From Armatimonadota bacterium (GTDB taxonomy: Bacteria; Armatimonadota; UBA5829; DTJY01): DNA of 39,190 bases. Both the position numbers and the translations under genes were made by a program. Of the stretch, positions 33 to 27,803 are shown piece by piece. Under the pieces are notes generated by a model, which had not been told where the DNA came from, ran no database searches, and was given only the letters and a program-made list of their open reading frames with translations. The stretch covers positions 1 to 39,190 of the forward strand of contig JAGONM010000019.1 of assembly GCA_017993055.1 (NCBI GenBank), in the 5' to 3' direction. How positions within the stretch are numbered: the first letter of the stretch is position 1; every line of letters starts with the position of its first letter.

Positions 33-716
33 ATGCGGGTACGGTCTCTGTCCCTTTCGATAATGGCGGTCCTGATAGGCACGTGTTGCGTCCAGTCCAC
101 CGCCAAGTCGAAGATAGACACGGTTGTCTATGAGGTGAAGCTATCGTCTCCCCAAGGTGATATGGGAACACGGAAGATGTATCGAAGGGGAGATCACTTT
201 CTCTGGGAGTACGAGTCCGCCGGGATGAAGATGAAGTTCGTCCGCAACAAGGACGGCGCTTTCATGATCCACCCGACCGGCAGGTATGCAGGCAAGTACC
301 CGCCCGGATCGAACCGCGAGAATCCGATCACCTTCCTTCCCGGCCCTCAGGGCGACGTGAAGGAGTTTCTGAACAGGCAGAGGGCCGAGCGAGTGGGCGA
401 GGAGAAGGTCGAGGGCAGGATCTGCGACATCTACACCTACATAGAGAGTGAGTCCCAGTGGAAGTGCAAGCTCTGGGTGGACAAGAAGGACTTCGTGCCG
501 GTGAAGATGACAATGACCGGCGCCAAGAAGACCGACGTCATTGACGTGATCTACCTGAGCTACAAAACGGGTGTCGTGGTCGCCGAGTCCAGGTTCGACC
601 TGCCCAAGGATATTGAGATACGCAACGTCCCGGAGCCTAAGAAGGACAGCGAGGCCGCCGACAAGAGCGAAAAGCCGGATGCCGCAGCAAGAGACGAGAC
701 CGCGACAAAGGAGTAA
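33..716 (+). CDS. LolA-like secreted protein of unknown function
   Basis: This 227-aa protein starts at an ATG with GGAGGT at 21-26, six bases upstream. Residues 1-24 form a signal peptide (basic start, hydrophobic core, then CCVQSTA). There is no good lipobox, because the residue before the first Cys is Thr. The mature part alternates short beta-like stretches (YEVKLSSPQG, MYRRGDHFLWEYES, KMKFVRNKDG) and resembles the LolA/LolB-type or DUF4412-type half-barrel that binds lipids or outer-membrane lipoproteins. The last 30 residues are a charged, probably disordered Lys/Glu/Asp tail. The stop codon lies three bases before the ATG of the cytochrome gene, so the two are probably co-transcribed. 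The fold assignment comes from overall pattern only. The ligand is unknown, and a role tied to the downstream cytochrome is an inference. Confidence 0.75.
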   Translation: MRVRSLSLSIMAVLIGTCCVQSTAKSKIDTVVYEVKLSSPQGDMGTRKMYRRGDHFLWEYESAGMKMKFVRNKDGAFMIHPTGRYAGKYPPGSNRENPITFLPGPQGDVKEFLNRQRAERVGEEKVEGRICDIYTYIESESQWKCKLWVDKKDFVPVKMTMTGAKKTDVIDVIYLSYKTGVVVAESRFDLPKDIEIRNVPEPKKDSEAADKSEKPDAAARDETATKE

Positions 717-719
717 GCG

Positions 720-2177
720 ATGCAGTTTATCAGCCCTCGACGCTTCCGGATCCTCGCGTGGTCCGTGTTCGCCTTTGCAGCGGTTTCGGGGCTCACCCTG
801 TCAGCATTGTTCACCTCTACAGGAGGAGCATCGCCGTCAGGCTCTAAGAAGCTGACCATCCTGTACAGCAACCAGGCCTTCGGACAGATACGCTCGTGCA
901 ACTGCACGAAGTTCCGCTACGGGGGATATGGTCGGGAGGCCACGCTGGTTCAGAACCTGAGGAAGGAAGACCCAAACGTCGTTCTCGTCGAAGGCGGCGA
1001 TGCCGTGGGGCGCGAGGATATCGAGCAGGACAAGCTGAAGTCGGAAGTCGCAATGAAGGCGATGAAGGATATCGGGTACGCGGCGTTTGTGCCTGGCGAG
1101 GCCGAACTGCGGTTCGACCGCGAGCACATCCAGAACTGGGCCGCTCTTTCCAAGACGCCTTTCATCATGGCCAACGCCAAGTATAAAGAGACCGGAGAGC
1201 CGGTCTGCGACCAGTCTTACATAGCAGTGAAGATGCCCAACGGACTCCGCGTGACGGTAATCGGCGTCGCGGGCACCGAGCTGTTCCCGGACATGATGCA
1301 ACCGAACCTCAAAGTGGAAGTGTCGGATCCCGAGGCGGCGGTCAAGGACATTCTGCGGAAGGTCCGCTCACAGTCCGAAGTGGTAATCGTAATTGCGCAC
1401 ATGACGACAGAGAAGGCCAGGCCGCTTGCCAGGATCGCCGGCATCGACGCGCTCATCTGCACGCATTCGTTTGAGAAGCTGGAGATGCCCGAGAAGGACC
1501 GGAACATCGTGCAGACCCCGCACGAGAAGATCGGAGACTGCGTATTCGTCATCAGCAATTCGAGATCGGGATGGGGAGTGGGGAGACTCGATCTGGAGGT
1601 CGCCGGCAAGAAGATCAACGTTGTACAGAGCCGAACTTTCTTCCTCGACCGCGAATATGACGAGCACCCCACGATAGTGAAGCTCTACGACGAGTACAAC
1701 ACAAAGGTCGCCGAGATGACGGCCAAGCAGCAGAACCAGTTTCGACAGCAGTTCGAAGAGCGCTTGAAGGAACGGGGCATTGACCCTAGCACGCGCAAGC
1801 GCGAGAGCCCGTTTACCGGCGGCGACGCATGCAAGACGTGCCACGAGGACGCCTACAGCCAGTGGGCAGGCACTCGTCATGCGACGGCGATGGCCACGCT
1901 CGAGAAGATGGGACAGCAGGCCGACCCGGAGTGCGTGGGATGCCACACGACGGGGGCCCTGCAACGAGGCGGGTTCACTACACTGAAGGAGACCCCGAAC
2001 CTGGTGAACGTGCAGTGCGAGGCGTGCCACGGCGCCGGGCTCTCACACAAGGAGAAACCCGCCGCCGGATACGGCAAGGTATCAGAGGAACTCTGCCGAA
2101 GCTGTCACACTGAGGCGTACAATCCGGACTTCGACTACGAAGCGATGCTCGCGCCGGTCCGGCACAAGAAGGACTAG
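720..2177 (+). CDS. Degenerate 5'-nucleotidase-like domain fused to four-haem cytochrome c
   Basis: The protein has 485 aa. Residues 1-35 hold an N-terminal membrane anchor or signal segment. Residues ~43-330 follow the UshA/5'-nucleotidase metallophosphoesterase pattern (TILYSNQAFGQIRSC, GGYGREATLV, VEGGDAVG, GIDALICTHS). The metal-binding positions are altered: the usual TNDxHG reads SNQAFG and the usual GNHE reads GEAE, so phosphoesterase activity is doubtful. Residues 371-463 carry four CxxCH haem c motifs at C371, C405, C433 and C459, as in cytochrome c-554-type multihaem proteins. This implies a periplasmic or surface location and electron transfer. The start codon overlaps the coupling region of the preceding gene, with GGAG at 709-712. 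Fusions of this general kind are seen in multihaem cytochrome families, but the electron donor and acceptor here are unknown. Confidence 0.88.
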   Translation: MQFISPRRFRILAWSVFAFAAVSGLTLSALFTSTGGASPSGSKKLTILYSNQAFGQIRSCNCTKFRYGGYGREATLVQNLRKEDPNVVLVEGGDAVGREDIEQDKLKSEVAMKAMKDIGYAAFVPGEAELRFDREHIQNWAALSKTPFIMANAKYKETGEPVCDQSYIAVKMPNGLRVTVIGVAGTELFPDMMQPNLKVEVSDPEAAVKDILRKVRSQSEVVIVIAHMTTEKARPLARIAGIDALICTHSFEKLEMPEKDRNIVQTPHEKIGDCVFVISNSRSGWGVGRLDLEVAGKKINVVQSRTFFLDREYDEHPTIVKLYDEYNTKVAEMTAKQQNQFRQQFEERLKERGIDPSTRKRESPFTGGDACKTCHEDAYSQWAGTRHATAMATLEKMGQQADPECVGCHTTGALQRGGFTTLKETPNLVNVQCEACHGAGLSHKEKPAAGYGKVSEELCRSCHTEAYNPDFDYEAMLAPVRHKKD

Positions 2178-2250: not shown

Positions 2251-2742
2251 TCACGCTCTGCGCCGTCTGATCATCGCACCGAGCGAAGCGACTCCGCCGA
2301 GCAGGGCCATCATCGAGCCGGGTTCCGGTACGGCTACGCCGTCATACGGAGTCTGCTCCTCACCAAGCACGCTGTAGTAGGCGGTGAAGAAGAGGGCCGG
2401 CGTCGGCGCGGCGATCTCAAAACCTTTGAGCTTCTCGCCCGGGCCGGGATCGTTCCCTACGGCATCGAACGCGGGGAAGTCATAGGCGGGGTTGACAACC
2501 CAGCCGGCCGGCGCGCCGACAACCGTGAAGTAGTCGCTCGCGACCGCCGGATCCCAGTAGATGTCGAGATACAGAGGGATCACGTCTCCTCCGGGTGCGT
2601 CGTTGTTGATGAGCGTGTATATCCACGTGCCGGGCGCGGCACCGGGACCGTAGGTCATCGAGAAGGGACCCACGGCAAAAGCGGATGTGCTGCAGAGGGC
2701 GATCACAGCCAGGGCTATGATCAGGCTCAATGTCAGTTTCAT
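2251..2742 (-). CDS. PEP-CTERM sorting-signal protein
   Basis: This 163-aa protein has a clear signal peptide (MKLTLSLIIALAVIALCSTSAFA) and a mature part without recognised domains. It ends in a classical PEP-CTERM tripartite signal: VPEPGS, a hydrophobic helix (MMALLGGVASLGAMI) and a basic tail (RRRRA). Such proteins are exported by Sec, then recognised and cleaved by an exosortase, and usually end up in the exopolysaccharide matrix or at the surface. No exosortase gene is in this window. AAGGAGGT lies at 2751-2758, eight bases before the start codon. A consensus sigma-54 promoter lies about 130 bases upstream (2871-2888), which suits the known RpoN/PrsR control of PEP-CTERM genes. The core is rich in aromatic and Gly/Pro residues (GWVVNPAYDFPAF) and its function cannot be named. 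Confidence 0.93.
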   Translation of the reverse strand: MKLTLSLIIALAVIALCSTSAFAVGPFSMTYGPGAAPGTWIYTLINNDAPGGDVIPLYLDIYWDPAVASDYFTVVGAPAGWVVNPAYDFPAFDAVGNDPGPGEKLKGFEIAAPTPALFFTAYYSVLGEEQTPYDGVAVPEPGSMMALLGGVASLGAMIRRRRA

Positions 2743-7188: not shown

Positions 7189-7203
7189 GGATGTGGTAAT
7201 GCG

Positions 7204-12811: not shown

Positions 12812-15800
12812 ATGCAGAACCGGCTCATTGCTGTTGCGCTGTTGTGTCTGACGTTCCTATTGGCGTCTGTGGAAGTAACTCTGGCGGTGACGGCTGAGGA
12901 TGTGATAGCGGTTGCTCGCCAGGAATGCGGGGACGCGACCGGTGCAGGGCAGGGGCATTTTTGGTGGCCGGGAAATACCACTACGCTCCAGCCGTGGAAT
13001 CCGATCCCTCCAGGCACATACTCCCGCATTGATCTGGCCAAGAACCTGTGGGCTGGTGCGTGCGGCAATGTACCCGCCGACCCCCCGAGCACCGGATGTA
13101 AGACACATAATAGTGCACCAGCGCAGTACTGTTGCACGGGTCATAGACATTACGACTGTGTTGGTTTCATCTGGTATTGTTTTAGAACCGTAGATGCCAT
13201 AGGCTTGATTGACGATCGTTACTATGGCGATCCATGGGAAGGATACGGATGGCGAGGTTGGCGTTCAATCGAAGCCGGTTGGTCCGGCGTCAAGCTTGAT
13301 TACGAGGAATGGTACAATAACCCGCAGCTTAGGAAACTCGGCGACATCATAGTATGCGGTGCCTGCGATCCGGGCTCCGCGTGCGACGAGTTTGATGAGG
13401 ACGATCCTATCGGTCATCTAGCTCTATATGTGGGCGGCCAGAGCATGATAGACTGCATACATTTCAGCGCGTCTGATACCGGCGTTAGGGAACGGCAGTT
13501 GAGGCCTGTATGCAGTTGTCAGATCAAGGGCAGGCCATGGAAGGTACTGAGGCCGACTTACGACGAACCATGTCGTGCCTCCATTACAGTACGCAAACTT
13601 GACCGGGGACTCCCCCTAGAAGGATTCCCGATTGAGATGGAGAAACCGGATGGCACCACGCTGTCGCAGCCTACCGATGTGGACGGTTACGCGCGATTCA
13701 AGGATCTGGTGACGGATGCGGACAAGGACTACGTCGTCAGAGAGAACGTGATCATCACCGATGGCATCATATCCTGGAACGGAAAGCGGTATCGCCCCGA
13801 CGGACCGACCACATACAGTATTCGAGTGACACAATGTGAAGACTATGCACGCATCTTTGACAACGTGTGTCTCGGGTCCGTTACCGCGCGGAAGTTCAAC
13901 GACTGCAACATGAACGGGCGGCGCGACTCCGGCGAGGCTTTCATCCCAGGGTGGCCGATGCGGCTCACCGGCGTCAAGGTGAACGGCGAGGCGGTCGGGC
14001 CGATTGACAAGCTGACCGACGGGAACGGCGCGGTCAAGTTCGCGGATCTCGATCCCGGCGACTACGTGGTGAGCGAACTCGGGAACGGGATCAGTTGGAC
14101 AAAGGTACAGAGCACCTGCGGCGCGACCTCCTACTGCGATTGGCGCACGTCGTGGGGCGGCAAGCGGTGGCAGGCCACTCAACCTCGACCGCCGGACAAC
14201 TGTAATGCCGCCGGCGCGGCGCCGTCGCTCCCGGTCCACATAGACTGCAACGACGTTGACATCGCGTTCGGCAACGTGGAACTCGGCGAGGTGAAGGCGT
14301 TCAAGTTCCACGACATGAACCTCGACAAGGAGTTCCAGCCGGTCGGCGAGGCGGACGCGGGCGGCGACCAGAAATGTACACCCGCCGAGCCGTTCACCGA
14401 CCTCAACTGCAACGGCAAGTGGGACGACGGCGAGTACTTCAGCGACCTCAACGGGAACAAAACGTGGGACCCCGCGGAGGCATTCGCGGACTCGGACGGC
14501 GACGGCTCCTACGACTGGCCGGAGTGCCCGGTCCCGACCTGGCCGTTCGCACTCACGGGCCTGCGGGCCGACGGTCGGCCGATCTGCCCGAAGGGGCTCA
14601 CGGGAGCCGACGGATGGGTGACGTTCCCCGACATCCCGCCGAGCAACGCCTCGGGCTACCGCCTCGCGGAGGACGACGGCATACTCCACTGGTGCGCCGT
14701 CAACCTCGGCTGGCCGGACGACCCGATACTGCGGTGCTCCTACACCGTGACCGACATCTGCACCGGCGCGGGGCCGTGCCGGACGATTGACCGCTGGCAG
14801 GCGACGACCACGACGTTCATGGACTTCGTGCTGCAGTGCGGGGCCGATCGGGAGGAGCAGTTCGGAAACATCTGCCTCGCCCGCGTTGACGGGATGAAGC
14901 TCATCTACGACGACGGGATGCCGGGGCAGGCCGACCCGGTCTTCCGTCCTTGGGCGATATGCCTCGCGGGGAAGGACCATTACGGGCGCGACGTCATACC
15001 GAGCGCGTCGCCGTGCACACCGCTCCCGCCGGCGGGACAGGCCCCGATCACGATCCCCTGCCATAGTCCGGCATGGTATGAGACGATCTGCAGCGGGGCG
15101 GACGGCACGTTCAGCTTCGTTGACCTGCTTCCGGGCCACTACCACCTGACCGAGCAGCCGGACGCCAACTACCGCATGGCGATCTCAAGGCCGATGCTCT
15201 CCGGGTTCGACGTCATGTGCTGCCCGGAGGAGGTAGAGATACAGAACATCCGCAAGGACCTCGCGTGGAAGGTATACCAGACCTATCCCGGCGACTCGAA
15301 CGAGGCGGAACTCGGCAACTTCGGCTACGGCGGCATGCTGGGCGATCTGATCCGCGCGGTGCCGGGCGCGCTGAAGATCGTCCCGGGAGAGAACTGGACG
15401 AACTACAAGCAGGGCGCCCAGCTCTGCCGTGAGACTCCGGGCAAGAGCACCATACTGACGAAGAAGTTCGACGGGTTCTCGCAGTGCGGGGACGTGTTCT
15501 ATCCCCTGACGGTGAGCCAGCAGGGCACGTCGAACATCCGGCTGTGGTGGCCGCTGATGTACGAGCCGCCGACCACGACTTGGACGCTGAGGCTGATCTA
15601 CGGCACGAAGACGGCCGTGCGCTTCCCCGGCGAATCCAGGGAGGGATACGTGCATGAGGACGTGTGGCGGTGGGTGGTCGAGACAGACATCCCGCACATG
15701 AAGCTGTTCCTGGACCTGCTGAGGGAGGCTCCGTTCGGCCTCGACGAGGTGCCGCTGATCTCCGATGAGGTGATGTACCCGGCGCTTCATGCGAAGCTCG

Positions 15801-16036
15801 ACGCGGTGCAGGCGGCGGTTGACGCGGGCAACAAGGTGTCCGCGGGGCTGCTGCTGGGGCAGTTCGAGATGCAGGTGATGGATGCGTGCATCGCTCTATC
15901 GCCCGCGAAGCCGTTCCCGACCGGACCGGGGACGGGGATAGCGAACTCGTTCGAGAACCCGGCGTGCTGTAAGCTCCTCGTGGACGCAGAGCATGTGGGG
16001 AAGACGCTCAACATCTTCCAGCCGACGAAGGACTAG
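12812..16036 (+). CDS. Secreted NlpC/P60-like protein with SdrD-B-like modules and the shared C-terminal domain
   Basis: The protein has 1074 aa from ATG 12812, chosen because AGGAG (12798-12802) and the signal peptide (ending SVEVTLA) fit it; a GTG 21 bases upstream fits neither. Residues ~28-250 resemble NlpC/P60 cysteine peptidases: nucleophile C116 in HYDCVGF, H202 in GHLALYVG, possible third residue H217. Such enzymes cut peptide stems of peptidoglycan. Residues ~255-810 are SdrD-B/prealbumin-like beta modules (VTARKFNDCNMNGRRDSGE, DLDPGDYVVSE). They include three consecutive calcium-loop-like motifs at 530-571 (DLNCNGKWDDGE, DLNGNKTWDPAE, DSDGDGSYDWPE). Residues 822-1074 are the ~254-residue domain also found in the convergent gene and in the 1858-aa protein. 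Enzyme activity is inferred from motifs only. Confidence 0.85.
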   Translation: MQNRLIAVALLCLTFLLASVEVTLAVTAEDVIAVARQECGDATGAGQGHFWWPGNTTTLQPWNPIPPGTYSRIDLAKNLWAGACGNVPADPPSTGCKTHNSAPAQYCCTGHRHYDCVGFIWYCFRTVDAIGLIDDRYYGDPWEGYGWRGWRSIEAGWSGVKLDYEEWYNNPQLRKLGDIIVCGACDPGSACDEFDEDDPIGHLALYVGGQSMIDCIHFSASDTGVRERQLRPVCSCQIKGRPWKVLRPTYDEPCRASITVRKLDRGLPLEGFPIEMEKPDGTTLSQPTDVDGYARFKDLVTDADKDYVVRENVIITDGIISWNGKRYRPDGPTTYSIRVTQCEDYARIFDNVCLGSVTARKFNDCNMNGRRDSGEAFIPGWPMRLTGVKVNGEAVGPIDKLTDGNGAVKFADLDPGDYVVSELGNGISWTKVQSTCGATSYCDWRTSWGGKRWQATQPRPPDNCNAAGAAPSLPVHIDCNDVDIAFGNVELGEVKAFKFHDMNLDKEFQPVGEADAGGDQKCTPAEPFTDLNCNGKWDDGEYFSDLNGNKTWDPAEAFADSDGDGSYDWPECPVPTWPFALTGLRADGRPICPKGLTGADGWVTFPDIPPSNASGYRLAEDDGILHWCAVNLGWPDDPILRCSYTVTDICTGAGPCRTIDRWQATTTTFMDFVLQCGADREEQFGNICLARVDGMKLIYDDGMPGQADPVFRPWAICLAGKDHYGRDVIPSASPCTPLPPAGQAPITIPCHSPAWYETICSGADGTFSFVDLLPGHYHLTEQPDANYRMAISRPMLSGFDVMCCPEEVEIQNIRKDLAWKVYQTYPGDSNEAELGNFGYGGMLGDLIRAVPGALKIVPGENWTNYKQGAQLCRETPGKSTILTKKFDGFSQCGDVFYPLTVSQQGTSNIRLWWPLMYEPPTTTWTLRLIYGTKTAVRFPGESREGYVHEDVWRWVVETDIPHMKLFLDLLREAPFGLDEVPLISDEVMYPALHAKLDAVQAAVDAGNKVSAGLLLGQFEMQVMDACIALSPAKPFPTGPGTGIANSFENPACCKLLVDAEHVGKTLNIFQPTKD
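15275..16033 (+). other. Shared C-terminal domain, copy 1
   Basis: Residues 822-1074 of the NlpC/P60-like protein. The conserved blocks are YPGDSN, VPG, W-N, QCGDVF, QQGTSNIR, WPLMYE, TTWTL, DEVPLISDEVMYP, DACIALSP and GPGTGIANS with ENPACCKLLVDAE. Four cysteines are shared by all three copies. Confidence 0.9.
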
Positions 16037-16069: not shown

Positions 16070-16109
16070 AAGGGAGTCGGGACTTCGGTCCCGACTCCCT
16101 TGTTGTTTC
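16070..16109. terminator. Bidirectional intrinsic terminator
   Basis: A perfect 14-base-pair stem (16070-16083 with 16088-16101) is closed by a TTCG tetraloop. It is followed by TTGTTGTTT on the plus strand and by TTTTCTTCGTC on the minus strand. It sits between two convergent genes and should end both transcripts. Confidence 0.92.
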
Positions 16110-16130: not shown

Positions 16131-17870
16131 TTACTTGACGGTGGCGATCAGGCCGAGGCGCTTGCCGACGTACTCGGCATCGGCGAGAATCTTGCAGCAG
16201 GCCGGATTCTCGACGCTGTTCGCTATGCCGGTGCCGGGGCCGGTGGGCCTGGGCTTCGCAGGGGAGACCGCGATGCAGGCGTCCATCACCATCATCTCAA
16301 AATCACCGAACGCGAGCCCGGAGTTCACGAAGTCGGCCATCCCGTGGAAGGCGATGATCTCGTCAAGCTTGGCCAGAAGCTTCGGATAGAGCACCTCATC
16401 CGAGATGAGCGGCACTTCATCGGTCGCGAACGGCACCTCGTGGAAGAGCGCGAGGAGGTCCTTCATGCTCTCCAGGGTGGCATCCACGTACCATTCCCAC
16501 GTCTCGGTGTGCACGTATGCGGGCTTGTTCGGGCCGGGCCCGTCGTCGTCCCAGGGCACGGACGTGCCGTACAGGATCGTGAGGGTCCAGGTCGTTCCGG
16601 GGATCTCGTACATCAGCGGCCAGTTGGTGCGGATGTTAGGCGTGCCCTGCTGGCTGATACGCTTCGCGGGGAACACGTCCGCGCACTGGATGATATCCGG
16701 CGTCTGCTTCGTGAGGGTCACGTTCTTTATGCCGTACTGGATTCCGGCCTTCGCGGCGCCGATGTAGTTCGCCCACTTCTCGCCGGGGATGATCTTCAGC
16801 ACGCCCGGCACGGCGGTGATCGCGTCGCCGTAGTTCCCGGCGCGGCCCGCCTGGTGCTGATCGAGGCCGTTCGAGTCGCCGGGATAGGCCTGCAGGAGCG
16901 GCTGAGGCTCGCGCGGTGGCTGGGGCGGCCTGGCGTCGCGGCCGACCCAGAATGCGACGGTCACCGGAACGATCTGTCCCGGGGCGATGGTGCCGAGAGA
17001 CCACTTCATCGCGCCGGCGACCTCGGCGGGGCCGACGAGGGTCGTGCCGGGAAGCGCGTCGGCATACAGCGCCTGAAGGAGGCCCACCGCAGGCTCGCCC
17101 GCGTGACCGGAGAACTCCCCTACCCCAAACGCAGTCGGCTGGACGTTCGAGCTGAAGCCGACGAGGTCGCTGCCTTCCGCAGTCCACAGGGATCCGCCAT
17201 ACGAGGTGATGTCGTAGCGGTAGTCCTGCAAGCCGCCGAGAGCGTAGGGAGTCGGATCGTAGACGGCGAAGTTGTTCGGACCCAGGTCGTTATTCGGGTG
17301 CGGGTGCAGGAACTGGTAGAAAGCAAAGTTCGTCACCGGGGTGGAACTGACGTTTCGGATGTTGTACGTCTGGAACAGCACGTACGGCGAACTGCGGAGC
17401 GCCGGCTCTGCGCCGACGCCTCCCGGATTCACACCGACTGCCATGCCTTCGGAGAGCTGCCGCATCTCGACGAGAATCTCGATCGAAAGCTTGTCGTTCC
17501 GGATGCGACTGCGACCGGTGTCGTTTCCGGTAACAGGATTGGTCGGCTCATCCCACGTAGTCATCGGCGCGACGACCTGAAACATCGAGTTGGTGGGGAA
17601 GTCCGGGCGGAAGAACTCCGGCGGCAGGAGCATCGAGTAGCCTGAAGGCGTGTTCATGCCGTCGTAGCGAACGGCCCCCGACCAGTCTCCGCAGAGTATC
17701 TCGTGAGGGCCCAGCGGACTCGGCAGAAGAGTCGTGACCAGGTTGGAATAGCCAAACCCGTCAAGAAAGATCTGCCAGTCGGGCGACTGGAGGTCCTGGG
17801 CGTGGGCCTGCATCCCTGCCGCAAACACAACGATGCAGAACAAGACAAGAGACTTCGTGATCAACCGCAT
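16131..17870 (-). CDS. Secreted protein of unknown function with the shared C-terminal domain
   Basis: The protein has 579 aa from the ATG at 17870. That start carries a signal peptide (MRLITKSLVLFCIVVFAAG, then MQAHAQ) and a GGAGGAGAGG ribosome site; an in-frame start 138 bases upstream has neither. Residues ~25-310 form an unrecognised beta-rich region (TNSMFQVVAPMTTWDEP, RSRIRNDKLSIEI, NNDLGPNNFAVYDPTPYA) that looks like an exported surface or choice-of-anchor type protein. A Pro-rich linker (PPQPPREPQP) follows, then residues 327-579, the domain shared with the convergent neighbour and with the 1858-aa protein. The second half is closer to that of the 1858-aa protein (for example SVPWDDDGPGPN beside SFPWDDDGPVGPN). 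No catalytic motif is seen. Confidence 0.85.
   Translation of the reverse strand: MRLITKSLVLFCIVVFAAGMQAHAQDLQSPDWQIFLDGFGYSNLVTTLLPSPLGPHEILCGDWSGAVRYDGMNTPSGYSMLLPPEFFRPDFPTNSMFQVVAPMTTWDEPTNPVTGNDTGRSRIRNDKLSIEILVEMRQLSEGMAVGVNPGGVGAEPALRSSPYVLFQTYNIRNVSSTPVTNFAFYQFLHPHPNNDLGPNNFAVYDPTPYALGGLQDYRYDITSYGGSLWTAEGSDLVGFSSNVQPTAFGVGEFSGHAGEPAVGLLQALYADALPGTTLVGPAEVAGAMKWSLGTIAPGQIVPVTVAFWVGRDARPPQPPREPQPLLQAYPGDSNGLDQHQAGRAGNYGDAITAVPGVLKIIPGEKWANYIGAAKAGIQYGIKNVTLTKQTPDIIQCADVFPAKRISQQGTPNIRTNWPLMYEIPGTTWTLTILYGTSVPWDDDGPGPNKPAYVHTETWEWYVDATLESMKDLLALFHEVPFATDEVPLISDEVLYPKLLAKLDEIIAFHGMADFVNSGLAFGDFEMMVMDACIAVSPAKPRPTGPGTGIANSVENPACCKILADAEYVGKRLGLIATVK
16134..16892 (-). other. Shared C-terminal domain, copy 2
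   Basis: Residues 327-579. The same ordered blocks are present: YPGDSN, AVPGVLKIIPGEKW, QCADVF, QQGTPNIR, WPLMYE, DEVPLISDEVLYP, DACIAVSP and GPGTGIANS with ENPACCKILADAE. The length is within two residues of the other copies. Confidence 0.9.
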
Positions 17871-19194: not shown

Positions 19195-19253
19195 CTGGCC
19201 TCAGCAGGTCACCTGTTACGAACGCGAATCTGACGACGAAGGAGGTGTCGCAA

Positions 19254-19439
19254 ATGGTAGAGAGAATCAAGAGGCTGTTCGCGGATGAGGAGGGTGCCAC
19301 GATGGTCGAATACGCCCTGCTCCTGGGCCTGATCGCGATAGTTGCGATACTGGCTCTGACGGGACTCGGTGGAACGGTAAAGAACCTCTTCACAGGAGCA
19401 GACAACGAGCTCAAGAAGGTCCCAACGACCCCCGGCTAG
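19254..19439 (+). CDS. flp: Flp-type (type IVb) pilin precursor
   Basis: This is a 61-aa pre-pilin, the major subunit of the Tad/Flp pilus. The start is ATG 19254, with AGGAGGTG at 19240-19247; a GTG nine bases upstream lies inside that ribosome site. The leader (MVERIKRLFADEEG) ends in Gly and is followed by ATMVEYALLLGLIAIVAI. That is the type IVb hallmark: cleavage after Gly, Glu at +5, and a hydrophobic helix. The C-terminal part is short and charged, as in other Flp pilins. The prepilin peptidase gene follows after 51 bases. Confidence 0.95.
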   Translation: MVERIKRLFADEEGATMVEYALLLGLIAIVAILALTGLGGTVKNLFTGADNELKKVPTTPG

Positions 19440-19490
19440 CGCCGAACGGGGCTCTGTACGACAACCGAGACCGCCATGTCGAGAGCTTGA

Positions 19491-20012
19491 ATGAGCCATC
19501 TAACCCGGTTGGCAGTGCCTGCCGTGTTGACTGTCCTGCTCGGTGCGGCAGTTTACACAGACCTGAGGCACGGTAAGATATACAACAAGCTTACCCTGAC
19601 CTGCACAGCGTTGGGGATAATCCTGTCCCTGCTGTCAGCCGGAATCCGCGGGGCTGGTGAGAGCCTTGCGGCGGTAGGACTGGTCGTGCTGCTCTACTTG
19701 CTGTTCGCACCCCTGACCGGGGTCGGCGGCGGTGACGTGAAGCTCATGATGGCGGTCGGAGCGCTGGTGGGCATCAGGCTGGCGGTGTGGGTTCTGCTCT
19801 TCTCAGCGGCGATCGGTGGGGGCATCGCGGTGATCGTGATGGTACGGCACCGTGTGTTCTGCCGCACGGTTGGGACGATGAGCACGAACCTGATCCTGAA
19901 GCTGTTCTATCGTGCTCCGGTGGAAGTGACCGGCGGGTCCCGAGGGTTGAGGTTCCGGTACAGTCCGGCTATCGCCCTCGGGACACTGCTGGCGTATGTT
20001 ATGAGACGTTAG
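19491..20012 (+). CDS. tadV: Prepilin peptidase of the Tad pilus (TadV/CpaA)
   Basis: This 173-aa integral membrane aspartic protease (family A24) removes the leader of the Flp pilin and the TadE/TadG pseudopilins. It shows the two expected Asp sites: D24 in YTDLRHGKIYN and the Asp of GVGGGDVKLM. It has about five hydrophobic segments and lacks the methylase domain of PilD, as is normal for TadV. The stop is followed by two hairpins and then tadE. Confidence 0.92.
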   Translation: MSHLTRLAVPAVLTVLLGAAVYTDLRHGKIYNKLTLTCTALGIILSLLSAGIRGAGESLAAVGLVVLLYLLFAPLTGVGGGDVKLMMAVGALVGIRLAVWVLLFSAAIGGGIAVIVMVRHRVFCRTVGTMSTNLILKLFYRAPVEVTGGSRGLRFRYSPAIALGTLLAYVMRR

Positions 20013-20060
20013 ACCGGAAGGCCCGAAGGCCGGTCCCACTCATGAAGAGGATGCCTCTTC
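20013..20060 (+). other. Two hairpins between tadV and tadE
   Basis: The first is ACCGG (20013-20017) with CCGGT (20030-20034), and an inner GGCC/GGCC alternative. The second is a perfect 7-bp stem, GAAGAGG (20044-20050) with CCTCTTC (20054-20060), around ATG. Neither has a T tract. They may be mRNA processing or stability elements that set the pilin and peptidase apart from later genes. Confidence 0.5.
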
Positions 20061-20088
20061 ACTCGCGGTTTTGAACGGAATCGAACCG

Positions 20089-20526
20089 ATGAACACCTGG
20101 CGGATGAACAATCGAGGCGTCGCGCTGGTGGAGTTCGCGCTCATAGCACTGCTCTTCATCACCCTCGCCATTGGAATCATAGATTTCGGACTGCTTGCCA
20201 AGGATTACCTGACGCTGGGCAGCGCCGCGCGGGAGGGCGCCAGAGCGGCCGCCCTGGGGGGCGCGAAAGAAGAAGTCATCGCGGCCGTACGCGCGAGCGC
20301 GCCGACGCCGAACAGCACCGAGAACCCGAAGGTGTACATGTGGTACGCGGAGATGGGTGCGAACCCTGACTGGAGGGCGTACAGTTCTCCTGACGAAATC
20401 CCCCCTGAACTGGCAGACGTGCAGGTCAAGGTACGCGCGGAGTATGAATGCAACCGGATATCGGGGACTTTCTTCGGCGAAGACCCGATCACCCTGAGCG
20501 CAGATGAAGTCATGCGAAAGGAATAG
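20089..20526 (+). CDS. tadE: TadE-like pseudopilin
   Basis: The protein has 145 aa from ATG 20089. TTG 20071 and ATG 20104 are alternatives, and none has a strong ribosome site. The N-terminal leader is followed by RGVALVEFALIALLFITLAIGIIDFG, the TadE pattern: a prepilin-like site before ALVEFAL with Glu near +5 and one membrane helix. The sequence then continues KDYLTLGSAAREGARAAALGG, very typical of TadE. The periplasmic C-terminal domain has one Cys. Such minor pseudopilins are processed by TadV and needed for Flp pilus assembly. Confidence 0.9.
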   Translation: MNTWRMNNRGVALVEFALIALLFITLAIGIIDFGLLAKDYLTLGSAAREGARAAALGGAKEEVIAAVRASAPTPNSTENPKVYMWYAEMGANPDWRAYSSPDEIPPELADVQVKVRAEYECNRISGTFFGEDPITLSADEVMRKE

Positions 20527-20582
20527 CCCCCGGTTCGCCGGTCAACACCGTGGGGGCACTCACCGGCACGGAGGTGCCAAAG

Positions 20583-21635
20583 ATGCGCAACGATAGCAGG
20601 AAGGACCGCGGCGCTATCCTGGTTCTTGCGGCGGTGCTGCTCATCGCGCTGATAGGCGCGGCGGCGCTGGCCGTTGATCTGGGACGGTTGCGTCTGGGCC
20701 AGGCGCGGGCACAGGATGTCTGCGACGCAGCCGCTCTGGGGACTGCCTGGCTACTCGAACCGACCGATATCGAGTCAACCGTGGCGAGGATATCTGATAC
20801 AGCAGACGAACTGGCTCGGGCGAACAACCAGTCCGATAACAGGAAGGTGCTCAAAGAAGGGCTTGATCAAGAGGGCGTGACGGTAACCAGAGTCGAGGGC
20901 AAATCGGTCAGACTGAGAGGCGAGGTCAAGGTCAATTTCGGCTTTGCCAGGATACTTGGACCCGGACCCGAGTTCAGAACGGGCCGAGTGGGAGCAGGAT
21001 CCAAGGCAATTCTGGAGAGCGCCAGAGGATTCCCCTACAAGTTCGCCCCGTTGGCCGTCACCCAGATGCAGGTCATGGACCCTGACTTCGCCAATGGGCG
21101 CAATCAGAAGTTGAGCAGCCGCTACTACAAGACCGATGGAACGCCTGATCAGATCAACAACCTGCATCCGGTCGGGGCCGAGGCCGACTTCGCGAGCCAA
21201 CTGGGAGTGTTTGGCAAGGAGATCGCGCTAGCCACGAGAAAACAGTTGCCTCGTATAGAGAAGGACATGTCAGCCCCCATCGTGAGCAATCTCAGTGAGC
21301 GCGTGAATGGCGACACGTGGACGTGGGAGCAGTGGAGCGCTGCCAGCGATGACGATAAGGCCACGAGCAGTCGCATAGTGATCATGCCGGTGGTGGACAA
21401 CAGCATGACCGTCGTGGGGTTCACGGGCTTCTTCGTAGAGACTGTCGGTCTCTACGTCGATACTAGAAACGACCGGCACTGCGCGGCGGTGTGGGGCCAT
21501 TTCGTACCCGGTGTTGTCGGCGCCACGTCGTCGGTACATTGGCTGAGGCCGTTCGAGGACTTCGATCAGCCTTGGCTCAACCCGTTCCAAGAAGACATGG
21601 GCAACCTGATGTATCGGGTCCGCTTGAGCAAGTAG
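20583..21635 (+). CDS. tadG: TadG-like Tad pilus protein
   Basis: The protein has 350 aa from ATG 20583, chosen because GGAGGTG at 20570-20576 is six bases upstream; a GTG at 20550 opens the same frame but lacks one. The N-terminus is the 'Tad' domain: RGAILVLAAVLLIALIGAAALAVDLGRL, a single membrane helix, then a conserved heptad-rich segment (QARAQDVCDAAALGTAWLL). The rest is a periplasmic region of mixed alpha/beta character without a von Willebrand motif that I can see. TadG proteins work with TadE and TadF at the pilus base. Confidence 0.85.
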   Translation: MRNDSRKDRGAILVLAAVLLIALIGAAALAVDLGRLRLGQARAQDVCDAAALGTAWLLEPTDIESTVARISDTADELARANNQSDNRKVLKEGLDQEGVTVTRVEGKSVRLRGEVKVNFGFARILGPGPEFRTGRVGAGSKAILESARGFPYKFAPLAVTQMQVMDPDFANGRNQKLSSRYYKTDGTPDQINNLHPVGAEADFASQLGVFGKEIALATRKQLPRIEKDMSAPIVSNLSERVNGDTWTWEQWSAASDDDKATSSRIVIMPVVDNSMTVVGFTGFFVETVGLYVDTRNDRHCAAVWGHFVPGVVGATSSVHWLRPFEDFDQPWLNPFQEDMGNLMYRVRLSK

Positions 21636-21655
21636 CAACCTAGGGAGAGAGAACC

Positions 21656-22555
21656 ATGAGTATGCAGACGAGACAGAAGACGCTGGTGATTGCCGCGGTC
21701 CTCGGGGTGCTGGCCGCCGCGCTGGTCTGGAGCTTCCTGGCCGGACAGAAGGCGCAGAAGGCCGAATCCGAGGTCCAGGTGGTGGTCGCCGCGAGCAACA
21801 TCCCCCGCGAGACCGTGGTGTCGCCCGCCGACATCACCATGCGGAGTTACGCCAAGGAACTCGTGCCCGCGGGCGCCGCGATCAGCGAGGGCATGGTGGT
21901 CGGCAAGGTCACTACGACCGACATCCGTGCCGACCAGCCGATCCTGACGGCGAGCCTGATGTCCAAGGACCGCCTGTCCTATGTGATCCCGCCGTTCATG
22001 CGCGCGGTGACCGTCGGCCTAGACCCGGTGATCGGAGTCGGCGGATTCCTCAAGCCGGGCGACCGCGTGGACGTGATCGCAACGTTCGATATGAACGAGA
22101 CCTCTTTCGCGAAGACGGTCCTGCAGAACGTCAGCCTTCTCGCGATCGGCTCAGAGGCGGTAGAGGAAGGCGACAAGCTGGCCGGCGACAAGCAGACAGC
22201 ACGCGTCCAGCCGACCGCCACGCTGGCGGTCACCCCCACCGAGGCTGAGAGGCTGATCCTCGCCGAGGCGAAGGGCAGACTCCGCCTGACGCTGCGATCC
22301 GCCGAGGACAGGCTCGTCAAGTCCGCCAGGCCTATCAGCGTCAGCGCTGTAATGGGCGTCGCACCGACGAAGTCCGCGCGCGCATCCGCACCGGCGGCCG
22401 CCCCGACCGGAGGCGGCTCGCCACTCATACCCCCGGCGCCGGTCGGCGGACAGCAGCTCACCCCCCTGCCCGGCACGGTGCAGATCGCGCCGCCCGTCAA
22501 GACCGTCACCGTCGTGCGCGGCACGAAGGTCGAGGAGACCGTAGTCCCGGAATAG
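21656..22555 (+). CDS. cpaB: Pilus assembly protein CpaB/RcpC
   Basis: This 299-aa protein has an N-terminal membrane anchor (TLVIAAVLGVLAAALVWSFLAG) and a SAF domain at ~41-105 (VVVAASNIPRETVVSPADI, GKVTTTDIRADQPIL). The RcpC core follows (AVTVGLDPVIGVGGFLKPGDRVDVIATF), and then a Pro/Ala-rich tail. CpaB/RcpC proteins act in the periplasm, help assemble the secretin and may contact peptidoglycan. The ATG lies 20 bases after tadG, with GGGAGAGAG upstream. Confidence 0.94.
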   Translation: MSMQTRQKTLVIAAVLGVLAAALVWSFLAGQKAQKAESEVQVVVAASNIPRETVVSPADITMRSYAKELVPAGAAISEGMVVGKVTTTDIRADQPILTASLMSKDRLSYVIPPFMRAVTVGLDPVIGVGGFLKPGDRVDVIATFDMNETSFAKTVLQNVSLLAIGSEAVEEGDKLAGDKQTARVQPTATLAVTPTEAERLILAEAKGRLRLTLRSAEDRLVKSARPISVSAVMGVAPTKSARASAPAAAPTGGGSPLIPPAPVGGQQLTPLPGTVQIAPPVKTVTVVRGTKVEETVVPE

Positions 22556-22636
22556 CCATTCGAATGCCATAAACGCCATGCAAAGGAGGCACGGGTCGAA
22601 GGGACGTTCCCTGCAGCACTCAGCGGCCCGGTCATT

Positions 22637-24259
22637 ATGAAAACTCGAAATGCTTGCTTGATAACTCTACTTGGGATAGTCGTGCTGTGCAGCATGGTCT
22701 CGCTTGCTTTCGCCGCGGCAGATCGGCTTGCGCCGGAGATGGTGCTCCGCGTCGGTGACAGCGAGATCATCGAGTGCGAGGACGCGAGGCGCGCGGCAAT
22801 CGGGGATCCGATCGTCGCGGACGTGGTCGCGCTCTCGACGACGGACATCCTGCTCAACGCAAAGTCACCCGGCACGACGGTCCTCTACGTCTGGGACAGG
22901 AACGGCAGGCGGCTCTTCCGCGTCAAGGTCGTCCCGGGCGAGGTGGACATGGACGCGCTGTGCGCAAGGATCAGCTCCGAGATAGGCGACGCGCGCGTCT
23001 CCGTTCGAGGCGTCGGGAACACAGTGATCCTCGAGGGCACGGTCAACCGCGAGGCCGAGTCGAGCAAGGCGGAGGCGATCGCCCGGGCGGTGGTCGAGAC
23101 TATGATCTTCCAGGGGACGAGCGCCGGCGCGAAGTCACAAGAGGTCAGGTCGGTCTCCCGTCCCGAAGGCGAATCCTTCGTGCTCGAGAAGGTGGTCTTG
23201 GACAAGGACACCTCTGTGGAAGCTCAGACGGGCCCGCGAGTCCCGAAGGTCGTCAACCTGATCCAGATCGAGAAGGCGATAGACGAGGTGACGGCGCTCA
23301 CGATGGAGGTTGCCGCGGCGTTCCGGCAGGCGCTCAACGAACCCGATCTGACGGTTCGCGCTCTGCCCGGCAGCGTGGTGCTCGTCGAGGGCAAGGTCGG
23401 AACTCCCGCCGAGATGGAACGGATCAACCTGCTGATCAAGGGATACAGCAAGGAAGTCGAGACCGACAAGGTGGCGGGCGGCGCGAAGGAACTCGTGACC
23501 ATGATCAACATGGTGAAGCTCGACAGTTCCCGCGCCCGTCAGATCATGGTCCGCGCGCAGGTCGTGGACATCAACAAGGAAGCTCTGAAGGAGTTCGGCG
23601 TCAACTGGGGACGCATCCTCGGCGGCAACCTGGATGACAACAACTGGTTGATCGGCCAGAGCGGCACCGGCCCGTTCGATCTGTTCGGCGGCGGGGCGAT
23701 TGACCGGCTCGATCCGATCGGCGCGAGGATCCGCGCGCTCGAACAGCAGGACAAGGCGAAGATACTGTCCCAGCCCAACCTGCTGGTGCTCGACGGCCGC
23801 GAGGGAAACATACTGGTCGGCGGCGAGATACCGATCCCGGTGCCCCAGACGAGCTCAACCGGCGGCGGGACGACGATCACCATCGAATACAAGGAATACG
23901 GCGTGCGGCTGAGGGTTCTTCCCGAGATAACGGGCGACGGCACGCTCCAGCTTCAGGTCATGCCGGAGGTGAGCACGTTGAGCGACGCCGGCTCCATCAC
24001 GATCAACGGATTCGACGTGCCTGCTCTGCGGACTCGCAGGGCGGAGACGACGGTCAGCGTGCGGGACGGACAGTCGCTCATCATCGGCGGACTGATTCAG
24101 AACGAAGACTCGAAGCTGGTCAACAAGATACCGATTCTCGGAGACCTGCCGATCATCGGGGAGTTGTTCAAGAGCCGGAGATTCCAGAACAACGAATCCG
24201 AACTCGTAATCATCATCACGCCGCAGATCATGCAGCCCACAGCGACTGCTCAGGGATAG
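22637..24259 (+). CDS. cpaC: Secretin of the Tad pilus (CpaC/RcpA)
   Basis: This 540-aa protein has a signal peptide (ITLLGIVVLCSMVSLAFA). The N0/T2SS-N-like domain at ~30-100 carries VGDSEIIECEDARRAAIGDP. Two BON-like stretches follow at ~110-290, and then the secretin core from ~310 to 535: RAQVVDINKEALKEFGVNWG, AKILSQPNLLVLDGREGNI, GGEIPIPVPQ, then DGQSLIIGGLIQNED and KIPILGDLPIIGELFKS. It forms the outer-membrane ring through which the pilus passes. An AGGAGG at 22583-22588 is too far from the start to serve it, and no strong site is nearer, so translation may depend on coupling with cpaB. TadZ starts five bases after its stop. Confidence 0.96.
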   Translation: MKTRNACLITLLGIVVLCSMVSLAFAAADRLAPEMVLRVGDSEIIECEDARRAAIGDPIVADVVALSTTDILLNAKSPGTTVLYVWDRNGRRLFRVKVVPGEVDMDALCARISSEIGDARVSVRGVGNTVILEGTVNREAESSKAEAIARAVVETMIFQGTSAGAKSQEVRSVSRPEGESFVLEKVVLDKDTSVEAQTGPRVPKVVNLIQIEKAIDEVTALTMEVAAAFRQALNEPDLTVRALPGSVVLVEGKVGTPAEMERINLLIKGYSKEVETDKVAGGAKELVTMINMVKLDSSRARQIMVRAQVVDINKEALKEFGVNWGRILGGNLDDNNWLIGQSGTGPFDLFGGGAIDRLDPIGARIRALEQQDKAKILSQPNLLVLDGREGNILVGGEIPIPVPQTSSTGGGTTITIEYKEYGVRLRVLPEITGDGTLQLQVMPEVSTLSDAGSITINGFDVPALRTRRAETTVSVRDGQSLIIGGLIQNEDSKLVNKIPILGDLPIIGELFKSRRFQNNESELVIIITPQIMQPTATAQG

Positions 24260-24264
24260 CAACT

Positions 24265-25473
24265 ATGTCAACCAGAGTACTCGTAGCCGAATACGACTCC
24301 GCGCATCGAGATGAAATAGCGCGGGCGGCCGCGTCGGACCCGGGGGTCGAGATCGTCGGTCTGGCGCGGGACGGCCAGGAGGCGGTCCAGCTCTCAGTGA
24401 TGCGGGCGCCGGACGTGGCGATCATCTCCGACAGGCTGCCGGGTCTGACCGCGCTTCAGACATGCGAGACGCTGAACGCGGTCGCGCCACAGGTGATGCC
24501 GATACTGCTGTCGGACTCCAGGACACCCGAAATGCTGGAAACCGCGATGAGGTCCGGCGCGAGAGCAGTCGTCACCAGGCCGGTGGACGCCAAGAGCCTG
24601 ATGCCCGTCATCGGATCGCTGATCGAGATCGGCAGCCGCCGCGACTCCGAGGAAGTCAAAGAGTTGAGAGACCCCTCGACGTTCCCCCGGGTGATAGTGG
24701 TCACAGGGGCGAAGGGAGGGGTCGGCAAGAGCACGGTTGCCGCGAACCTGGCCGTCGTGCTGGCGAAGTCGGCACCGCGCAGAGTCGCACTGGTGGACAG
24801 CTACACGCAGTACGGAGACATCGCCACGATGTTCCACGTTCGGCCCGGGCGCCCGCTGTCTGAACTCGAGTCGGTCGCATCCGAACTCGACGCCACGATA
24901 GTGCGCGACTATGTGACGCAGCACCCTTCCGGCGTGGACATACTGGTGGCGTCTACGGAGCATCAGTCGCTCGACGCCTTGTCGGCGGAGTGCCTGGAGA
25001 ACCTGCTCTACGTGCTGCGCCGGATGTACCGCTACATCATCGTGGACGTGCCGCCGATACTGCACGCCCCCACCCTGCGGGTCCTCTCGAACGCAAACGC
25101 AATCCTGGTTATCGCCAACCTGTTCGACGTGACCACGGCTACGGACACCAAGCGGTTCTTCACGGCGATCGAGGAGTCAAAGATCCCGAGGGAGAACTTC
25201 GGCATCGTGCTGAACCGGGTGGCAAAGAGCAATCACATCAACCCCGAGGACATCGAGAGTCTATTCGAATGCGGGATACTCGCCAAGATCCCGAACGACG
25301 GGCGACTCGTCTCCGCTATCAACGAGGGAGTACCGATCGCATCATCGAGCGTGAACTCTCCCTTCGGCCGAAGCATCGCGGACCTCGCTGCCCGGGTGTC
25401 AGGCCAGAACGGGTACTGCGCGTCGAGGAAACCCGCACCAAGATCCGGCACGAAGGCCCGTGCGCGGACGTGA
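24265..25473 (+). CDS. tadZ: TadZ/CpaE pilus-localisation ATPase with pseudo-receiver domain
   Basis: The protein has 402 aa. Residues ~4-125 form a response-regulator-like domain that lacks the key residues: the phospho-acceptor Asp position is Ser55 (IISDRLPG) and the usual Lys is Arg (VTRPVDAKSL). The ATPase is MinD/ParA-like, with a deviant Walker A K150-GGVGKST-157 and switch regions DSYTQYGD and VDVPPIL. TadZ proteins dock at the pole and recruit other Tad proteins there, and an atypical receiver is typical of the family. It starts five bases after the secretin stop and is followed by the ATPase tadA. Confidence 0.95.
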   Translation: MSTRVLVAEYDSAHRDEIARAAASDPGVEIVGLARDGQEAVQLSVMRAPDVAIISDRLPGLTALQTCETLNAVAPQVMPILLSDSRTPEMLETAMRSGARAVVTRPVDAKSLMPVIGSLIEIGSRRDSEEVKELRDPSTFPRVIVVTGAKGGVGKSTVAANLAVVLAKSAPRRVALVDSYTQYGDIATMFHVRPGRPLSELESVASELDATIVRDYVTQHPSGVDILVASTEHQSLDALSAECLENLLYVLRRMYRYIIVDVPPILHAPTLRVLSNANAILVIANLFDVTTATDTKRFFTAIEESKIPRENFGIVLNRVAKSNHINPEDIESLFECGILAKIPNDGRLVSAINEGVPIASSSVNSPFGRSIADLAARVSGQNGYCASRKPAPRSGTKARART

Positions 25474-25517
25474 CGGCGGATTGCGGGTGAAACAGGTGGC
25501 ATGCAAGGAGAGCCGAA

Positions 25518-26834
25518 GTGGATACGGAAATCGAACAGGGTGATCCTGGAGGCGCAATGAACGCGCGCAGCTTGATGGATCTGAAGGCTCAGATCCACGA
25601 AAGGCTGATGGACGACATTGACGCCGGCGAACTGGGCCGCATCGAGAGGCACGCGCTGGCCCAGGAGGTCCGCCGGGTGATGGCGGATGTCATGACGGAA
25701 GGAGCCGTCACGCTCCCACTGCGGCTGCGCGAGCAGGTGGTTTCCGACGTCATAGACGAGGTCCGCGGCTATGGTCCGATTCAGACCCTGCTGGACGACG
25801 CCGACATCACCGAGATCATGGTCAACGGGGCCAACAAGGTCTATGCCGAGAGAAACGGCAAGGTGTTCCTGACCGACCGCGTTTTTCGCGACGACGAACA
25901 TGTGATGCGGATCATAGGCAAAATCGTGACACCGCTCGGCCGCCGCATAGACGAGAGTTCGCCGATGGTGGACGCACGACTCCCGGACGGTTCACGAGTG
26001 AACGCGATCATCGCTCCGCTTTCGGTCAAGGGGCCGACGCTGACGATACGCAAGTTCTCCAGGGAGCCCTACGTGATGGAGGACCTGGTGAGCTTCGGCA
26101 CACTGAACCCCCGGATGGCGGACTTCCTGCGGGCCTGCGTCGCGGCCAAACTCAACATGATGGTCTCCGGCGGCACGGGCAGCGGCAAGACCACCACACT
26201 GAACGTTCTCTCATCCTTCGTGTCTAACGACGAGCGCATCGTGACCATAGAGGACGCGGCGGAGCTTCGCCTCCAGCAGGAGCACGTCGTCAGCCTCGAG
26301 AGCAGGCCCCCGAACATCGAGGGCGAGGGGGAGATACCGATCCGGATGCTGGTCAGGAACGCCCTCAGGATGCGCCCGGACAGGATCATCGTGGGAGAGG
26401 TCCGGGGCGGCGAAGCGCTCGATATGCTCCAGGCAATGAACACCGGCCACGACGGATCACTCAGCACGGCGCACACCAACTCGCCGCGGGACACACTTTC
26501 CAGACTCGAAACGATGGCGCTCATGGCCGGCACAGAGCTTCCCTCCCGGGCGATACGAGAGCAGATCGCGTCGGCGGTACATCTGATAGTTCACCAGAAC
26601 CGCCTCCGGGACGGAAGCAGGAAGATCACCCACATCACCGAGGTTCAGGGCATGGAGGGCGAGGTAATCACGCTCCAAGACATCTTCCTGTTCGACCAGC
26701 GGGGAGTTGACGCGCACGGAAGAGTACTGGGCGAGCACATCGCCACCGGTCTCAGGCCGAAGTTCGTGGACCGTCTGTATCAGCAGGGAGTCGAACTTCC
26801 CTCGGACATGTTCAACACAAGGACACTCGTATGA
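25518..26834 (+). CDS. tadA: Tad pilus assembly and secretion ATPase (TadA/CpaF)
   Basis: The protein has 438 aa from GTG 25518, with AAGGAG at 25505-25510. An in-frame ATG at 25557 preceded by GGAGG is an equally plausible start. This is a type II/IV secretion ATPase: an N-terminal domain (DDADITEIMVNG, VDARLPDGSRVNAI, LTIRKFS), Walker A G218-GTGSGKTTT-226, an Asp box (TIEDAAEL), Walker B (RPDRIIVGEVRGGEALDML) and a His box (GHDGSLSTAHTN). It forms the cytoplasmic hexamer that powers pilus assembly. Its TGA overlaps the ATG of tadB (ATGA), a sign of translational coupling. Confidence 0.97.
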   Translation: MDTEIEQGDPGGAMNARSLMDLKAQIHERLMDDIDAGELGRIERHALAQEVRRVMADVMTEGAVTLPLRLREQVVSDVIDEVRGYGPIQTLLDDADITEIMVNGANKVYAERNGKVFLTDRVFRDDEHVMRIIGKIVTPLGRRIDESSPMVDARLPDGSRVNAIIAPLSVKGPTLTIRKFSREPYVMEDLVSFGTLNPRMADFLRACVAAKLNMMVSGGTGSGKTTTLNVLSSFVSNDERIVTIEDAAELRLQQEHVVSLESRPPNIEGEGEIPIRMLVRNALRMRPDRIIVGEVRGGEALDMLQAMNTGHDGSLSTAHTNSPRDTLSRLETMALMAGTELPSRAIREQIASAVHLIVHQNRLRDGSRKITHITEVQGMEGEVITLQDIFLFDQRGVDAHGRVLGEHIATGLRPKFVDRLYQQGVELPSDMFNTRTLV

Positions 26835-27787
26835 AGTTCCTATGGGCAACTGCGGCCTTTGCGGCCGTGTTCGCAGCCGTACTGCTGGTGGGGATTCTCT
26901 CATCGCGACGACAGAAGCGGGTCTCCGCGCGGCTGAAGGAACTCACCGGAACGGCCGTCCAGACCGCCAAGCCTCGGTCCAGTGATCCGATTCAGCGGGA
27001 AGACGCGGTCCCGATCCTGACACGACTGCTCAAGGGCAGGCGGATAACCGATCGCGTGTACTCGGAACTGTCGGCCGCGGGACTGCCGATACGCCCGAGC
27101 GAGTTCGTCGGGATTCTGTGCGGCTGCCTCATCGTGTCGCAGCTGCTCGCGTTCGCGGCGAACAAGGGCATCATCGCGCACCTGGTCTTCGGAGCAGTCG
27201 CCATCGGGCTGCCCATCGCGATAGTCCGATCGCTGCAGACGAAGCGACGTGCCGCGTTCGACGCTCAAATCGTGGACGCCCTGATCACGATGTCGGCGTC
27301 GCTGAAATCAGGTTTCGCTCTGATGAGAGCGATGCAGATGGTGGCGCAGGAGATGCCGCCGCCTATCTCGCAGGAGTTCGAGCGAGTCGTGAACGAGGTC
27401 GGAAACGGCCGAGGCACGGGCGACGCGCTTCGAGCGTCCGTGGAGAGAGTCGGTAGCTACGACTTCGATCTCGTCGTTACGGCGATACTGATACACCAGC
27501 GCGTGGGAGGCAACCTGTCCCAGATCCTGGACACCATAGCCGACACGATCAGGGAGCGCGCGAAGGTCATGGGCGAGATGAAGGCCCTGACCGCCGAGGG
27601 GCGCATATCCGGGCTGGTGCTCGTCCTCCTGCCGCTCGTGCTTGCCGTCTTTCTCTTCGGCACACGCCCGGAGTACATGTCGCCGCTGTTGACCGACCCG
27701 CTCGGACAGATGATGGTAGGCGCCGCCGCGTCACTGCAGATCATCGGCGTGCTGATCATGCGAAAGATGCTCGCTCTGGACTTCTAG
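26831..27787 (+). CDS. tadB: Tad inner-membrane platform protein TadB
   Basis: This 318-aa protein overlaps tadA by four bases. It has an N-terminal membrane helix (LWATAAFAAVFAAVLLVGILSS), two central helices (~100-145) and a type II secretion F-like domain (VDALITMSASLKSGFALMRAM, VGSYDFDLVVTAILIHQRVGGNLSQILD), then C-terminal helices (ISGLVLVLLPLVLAVFLFG). It pairs with TadC to form the platform on which TadA acts. Confidence 0.95.
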   Translation: MKFLWATAAFAAVFAAVLLVGILSSRRQKRVSARLKELTGTAVQTAKPRSSDPIQREDAVPILTRLLKGRRITDRVYSELSAAGLPIRPSEFVGILCGCLIVSQLLAFAANKGIIAHLVFGAVAIGLPIAIVRSLQTKRRAAFDAQIVDALITMSASLKSGFALMRAMQMVAQEMPPPISQEFERVVNEVGNGRGTGDALRASVERVGSYDFDLVVTAILIHQRVGGNLSQILDTIADTIRERAKVMGEMKALTAEGRISGLVLVLLPLVLAVFLFGTRPEYMSPLLTDPLGQMMVGAAASLQIIGVLIMRKMLALDF

Positions 27788-27803
27788 TGGAGAGTAGGCC
27801 GTC

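Follow-up and report, generated by a model that had tools for sequence, protein, structure and literature searches.

Three exported proteins encoded on one stretch of an Armatimonadota genome end in the same C-terminal domain around a Tad pilus locus, which raises the question of what this domain is and what it does for the proteins that carry it. The stretch analysed here, the window, comprises 39,190 nucleotides of contig C19 from its first base; the genome that carries it (G000; 3.72 Mb, 82 contigs) is 99.6% complete. The initial annotation had placed the shared domain at the ends of three exported proteins (P4, P5 and P6; Table 1), and this was confirmed. The translations of the three copies are free of stop codons and align over 256 columns with 57-68% identity, and in a genome search copies 2 and 3 matched copy 1 with E values of 1e-118 and 1e-89. 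All sequence blocks singled out at that stage, including YPGDSN, WPLMYE, DEVPLISDEV, GPGTGIANS and ENPACCK, as well as four cysteines, are invariant in all three copies. The proposed count of genome copies gave exactly three in the assembly, all inside the window. In each case the stop codon follows 0-2 residues beyond the end of the domain, and the protein lengths of 1074, 579 and 1858 aa agree with ATG starts inside the open reading frames at 12791, 16131 (minus strand) and 29317. A profile search detected no PEP-CTERM tail in P4-P6, whose domain copies end in soluble tails without a C-terminal membrane helix. For the N-terminal parts of P4 and P6, related genomes encode homologues that are themselves domain-bearing proteins, for P4 the locus L043 in G007.

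Table 1 Coordinates of the domain copies, their host genes and neighbouring features in the window
Feature	Position	Strand	Description
Start of contig C19	1..32	.	Solo domain gene expected upstream
LolA-like periplasmic/secreted protein	33..716	+	Partner of the solo domain in 11 other genomes
UshA-like metallophosphatase with tetraheme cytochrome C-terminus	720..2177	+	Third cassette gene
Small PEP-CTERM protein	2251..2742	-	Homologue near the G020 cassette
P4	12812..16036	+	Signal peptide, weak NlpC/P60-like N-terminal region, SdrD_B/SpaA-like repeats, domain
Domain copy 1	15275..16033	+	C-terminus of P4 (1074 aa)
Hairpin	16072..16099	.	Perfect; flanked on each side by A and T runs; separates convergent P4 and P5
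P5	16131..17870	-	Signal peptide, ~300-residue region without Pfam match, domain
Domain copy 2	16134..16892	-	C-terminus of P5 (579 aa)
Tad pilus locus, complete	19245..28724	+	Flp, TadV, TadE, TadG, CpaB, CpaC, CpaE, CpaF, TadB, TadC
P6	29317..34893	+	Signal peptide, DUF11-type repeats, domain
Domain copy 3	34126..34890	+	C-terminus of P6 (1858 aa); used for the AlphaFold model

Several further features of this region were recorded. Residues ~117-221 of P4 (open reading frame 12791-16036) resemble NlpC/P60 proteins (DCVGFIW ... GHLALYVGG; E 0.03, under the Pfam cut-off) and may be a peptidase of the cell wall carried by a giant surface protein. The hairpin between P4 and P5 looks like a bidirectional terminator, and an Rfam search of the window returned no match. 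The idea that gene conversion had recently acted between the three copies was rejected, as near-identical stretches are absent, the DNA identity is 62-72% and the longest identical run is 21 bases.

The domain defines a real, lineage-specific secreted family for which Pfam and NCBIfam hold no model. In related whole genomes, 27 copies with conserved motifs were found in 12 genomes. A profile built on these copies (A2) recovered the same 12 of the 28 genomes of one Armatimonadota class and gave zero matches in 263 other genomes of the phylum. The scope of the whole-genome profile search was Armatimonadota only; a scan beyond the phylum, made with narrow patterns from three sequences only, found one locus, itself on an Armatimonadota contig. 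Sequence searches of Pfam, NCBIfam and the PDB gave no match to the family, the PDB sequence matches that did appear, such as HTRA1, being due to chance only. A mobile or phage origin was also rejected, with no relative among viral contigs or plasmids.

Fifteen of the 27 copies are solo proteins of ~280-420 aa (typically ~300; one is truncated by a contig end) with little beyond a signal peptide and the domain. Eleven are C-terminal fusions, comprising P4, P5 and P6 together with, among others, a 1226-aa DUF11 protein in G008 and two SdrD-type proteins of 1423-1430 aa in G007. All copies but one (26 of 27) lie C-terminally, or almost so, in an exported protein; the exception, L027, continues for ~200 residues beyond the domain. 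A tandem pair of very divergent copies occurs in G007 (L048 7799-10050), one of which is this exception. Because the mature secreted protein contains hardly anything but the domain in 15 of the 27 copies, the domain is first an autonomous secreted protein and second a C-terminal module. The earlier view of a C-terminal sorting or attachment-type module thus stands as regards position, but not as regards a domain that is chiefly a tag; its occurrence alone, which had been named as an observation that would speak against that view, is the commoner form. The same distribution bears on a cleaved C-terminal secretion signal of the type IX kind. Such a signal would fit the way in which exported proteins carry the domain C-terminally, behind Ig-like or repeat modules, but it is hard to reconcile with a domain that forms the whole mature solo protein, and we consider it barely credible. 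Type IX tails are short, and 255 residues with a helical bundle are unlike such a tail. A search for the type IX component SprA gave no match, with control genomes equally silent.

Structure prediction, which had been recommended with the initial annotation, yielded a well-ordered two-part fold. The AlphaFold model of copy 3, computed with a 27-row alignment, reached a mean pLDDT of 88.8 and a pTM of 0.84. Residues up to ~145 form a beta-sandwich; its structural matches are weak (Z at most 4.8 for the whole model and at most 4.5 for this half alone), almost all of them being with fibronectin III or Ig domains. Residues 145-258 form a four-helix bundle that resembles FIMAH modules known from secreted hydrolases; this half counts 118 residues and has an insertion ahead of helix 4. 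The best match of the bundle was the C-terminal bundle of the NnGH92 mannosidase (PDB 7nsn 1324-1411; 2.1 Å over 86 residues, 16% identity), with a Z of 12.2, which is just under the safe level of the tool for bundle matches. A FIMAH profile made from sequences of this phylum matches 7nsn 1329-1405 with an E value of 0.026. When compared with the FIMAH profile, the helical half scored 28.8 (probability 57.8%), while 200 column shuffles gave at most 20.95 and two reversals gave 13.8 and 14.35. None of the 27 copies passed the cut-off of the FIMAH model PF22888 (24.8 bits; best E 0.19, in one copy), and the domain is therefore named FIMAH-like rather than a FIMAH member. The Pfam FIMAH model had no match in any domain-positive genome. 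The description of the domain as undescribed holds for Pfam, NCBIfam and the PDB at the sequence level, but calls for qualification as regards its C-terminal half, which looks FIMAH-like. Much of the strongest conservation falls within the sandwich and within loops without a FIMAH counterpart, namely WPLMYE, the DEVPLISDE loop and TGIANTxENPACC. A literature search found no paper in which FIMAH is the name of a protein domain. For NnGH92, deletion of the four-helix bundle halved binding to the yeast cell wall; this evidence is confounded, as the authors themselves note, in that the deletion lowers the Tm by 7 °C, and deletion of the bundle plus CBM32 raised binding (PMC10167667).

The position of the three copies around the Tad locus suggested a connection with the pilus. 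The locus is complete, as had been annotated, with the Flp pilin at 19245-19439 and a prepilin peptidase among the Tad genes found. One reading of this arrangement is a Tad-dependent export or pilus-tip sorting domain that would route the giants to the Tad pilus. Besides the copies flanking Tad in the window, G014 and G015, which belong to another family, carry two fused copies directly downstream of TadC. The longer giant of these two genomes is the orthologue of P6 (33% identity over the non-repetitive N-terminal 294 residues, E 2e-38), and in a search of the class the P6 N-terminal part was found only in G000, G014 and G015, always beside Tad. As a general rule, however, the link to Tad fails. 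CpaF occurs in 6 of 12 domain-positive and 6 of 16 domain-negative genomes, that is, without association (Fisher p 0.70), and G007 has six domain copies and no Tad. Furthermore, no domain giant was seen near the Tad loci of nine other genomes of the class (several of them cut by contig ends), and the solo copies are located away from Tad. What remains of the proposed link is local: a domain giant adjoins Tad in G000, G014 and G015, recurring in only two genera. A dedicated Tad signal is for these reasons very improbable. The C-terminal domains of the three P6 orthologues fail to group as a single clade (AU p 0.0034), each lying with the copies of its own lineage, which indicates repeated acquisition or exchange of the domain on one kind of protein.

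A 287-aa exported protein without a Pfam match precedes the Tad locus (18311-19174), and its homologue occupies the same place in G002 (L100 1388-2296). Judged by eye, it is possibly an outer-membrane barrel.

The genetic context of the solo copies proved far more regular. One solo copy per genome occupies a conserved cassette, in the order of a divergent gene for a PEP-CTERM PQQ-propeller protein, the solo domain, a LolA-like gene and usually a gene for an UshA-like tetraheme cytochrome protein. The divergent PQQ-propeller gene is found upstream wherever the contig extends far enough, and all nine divergent single-propeller PQQ proteins examined bear a PEP-CTERM tail (L030, L031, L034-L036, L040, L041, L046, L047). 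The LolA-like gene lies immediately downstream of the solo copy in 11 of the 11 genomes where the site is assembled, and an UshA-like homologue follows it in all cassettes except those of G007 and of the contig-truncated G026. A partner gene tracking the domain, for which a check had been suggested, was thereby identified: the LolA-like gene is present in 12 of 12 domain-positive and 0 of 16 domain-negative genomes (E<1e-24). The corresponding Fisher p, for genomes that are not independent of each other, is 3e-8, or 6e-6 when two marginal matches in domain-negative genomes (E ~3e-4), not counted as present, are included. Four families contain both domain-positive and domain-negative genomes, and within each of them the LolA-like match to the domain is complete. 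Part of this co-occurrence reflects a cassette that is inherited or lost as a unit.

Such perfect tracking and adjacency would also be expected of a docking pair, in which the LolA-like protein, as a chaperone or receptor in the periplasm, would bind the domain and either carry it to the outer membrane or anchor it there. The LolA-like assignment itself is nevertheless weak, with a best Pfam E of 0.0013, under the cut-off, and other members weakly resembling DUF2092 or DUF4412; moreover, operon neighbours are not necessarily binding partners. We regard a docking pair as quite improbable, though it deserves serious consideration.

Further observations concern the genes around the cassette. UshA-like homologues in G004, G002, G019, G024, G026, G015 and G017 (L139, L140, L141 with two genes, L142, L143, L144, L145) each show a single TGA within the frame, in the motif PCG[TGA], with ~390-430 open codons after it, and are likely selenoproteins of the known UshA-like family. 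The copy in the window has a cysteine at this site (RSCNC). Two giant fn3/PQQ-repeat proteins are encoded at 2989-12453 of the window; homologues of both follow the solo cassette in G007, and of the first one also in G020 and G015. The conserved island may therefore exceed the cassette.

In the genome under study, the cassette appears to be interrupted by an assembly gap. The LolA-like gene starts 33 bases into contig C19, and the best PQQ-propeller homologue (G000:C2:39-1175; L134, L138), which bears a PEP-CTERM tail, is incomplete, contig C2 beginning within its signal peptide. With the ends of C2 and C19 placed head to head, the gap would fall exactly at the usual site of the solo gene, and it is natural to infer a fourth, unassembled solo copy there. 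Every other genome with fused copies (G006, G007, G008, G014, G015) also has a solo cassette, G000 being the open case. This companionship is what would be seen if the solo protein polymerised into an extracellular array or fibre that the giants join via the same domain, with their N-terminal parts displayed. The trees agree to some extent, since copies from one genus or genome tend to cluster, as expected if copies must fit each other; the G000 copies, however, cluster only weakly (89/70). Such co-assembly is in our view rather unlikely, though likewise to be taken seriously.

The explanation that we tentatively prefer, at somewhat short of an even chance, is a secreted, disulphide-capable surface- or matrix-attachment module, the basic form of which is the autonomous solo protein. 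The module would consist of a fibronectin/Ig-like beta-sandwich and, after it, a FIMAH-like bundle of four helices, one loop of which bears cysteine. In its basic form it would be secreted as an autonomous protein of ~300 aa from the PQQ-propeller/LolA-like/UshA-like cassette, while in some genomes extra copies would have been fused to the C-termini of giant adhesin- or stalk-like proteins, with DUF11 or SdrD_B repeats and perhaps a peptidase as fusion partners. Most likely, the module would then retain the giant at the cell surface or within a matrix of extracellular polymers, and the N-terminal part would reach outwards. The family, its autonomous form, the cassette, the co-occurrence with the LolA-like gene and the predicted fold are direct results, whereas we infer the location beyond the inner membrane, binding, a ligand and any direct contact with the LolA-like protein. 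PEP-CTERM proteins are reported to be linked to floc formation and, via exosortase, to biofilm (PMC9850573, PMC12188702). A broader version of the attachment reading, possible but unlikely, is that the solo domain, its LolA-like partner, the PEP-CTERM propeller and the UshA-like multiheme protein together constitute a lineage-specific anchoring or display apparatus, and that proteins acquiring the domain at their C-termini are displayed by it. If so, fusion to, or exchange on, the giants beside Tad would have occurred more than once, in line with the separate grouping of the domains of the P6 orthologues from two families.

Little is known of how Armatimonadota, nearly all of them uncultured, keep large exported proteins at the cell surface. 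The present analysis provides a defined family for which neither Pfam nor NCBIfam has a model, a conserved cassette and a partner that tracks the domain perfectly in the genomes compared. The small solo protein is expressible and testable, and a FIMAH-like bundle, the function of which has been poorly tested, is now linked to a PEP-CTERM gene context.

Among known systems, FIMAH (PF22888) and the NnGH92 bundle (7nsn 1321-1411) are the closest in fold, the four-helix bundle being common to both. FIMAH is likewise C-terminal in exported multi-domain proteins and has the helix 2 and 3 sequence pattern L--K------G----A---L--F---V in common with the domain. It differs in being a compact module of ~81 residues, whereas the helical half described here has 118; unlike FIMAH, the domain has an insertion containing cysteines (SPxxPxPxGPGTGIANTxENPACC) that separates helices 3 and 4, and its bundle is always joined to its own beta-sandwich. 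P6 resembles Tad-associated adhesins in its adhesin-like repeats and in its position beside Tad in three genomes, but the domain is found without Tad, and Tad without the domain. The UshA-like protein of the window matches the UshA-like (seleno)protein family NF041198 at 234.9 bits, under the curated cut-off of 275, with cysteine instead of selenocysteine. PEP-CTERM/exosortase surface proteins, finally, are present in the same cassette and probably belong to the same extracellular matrix context, whereas the domain proteins lack both the PEP-CTERM tail and a C-terminal membrane helix.
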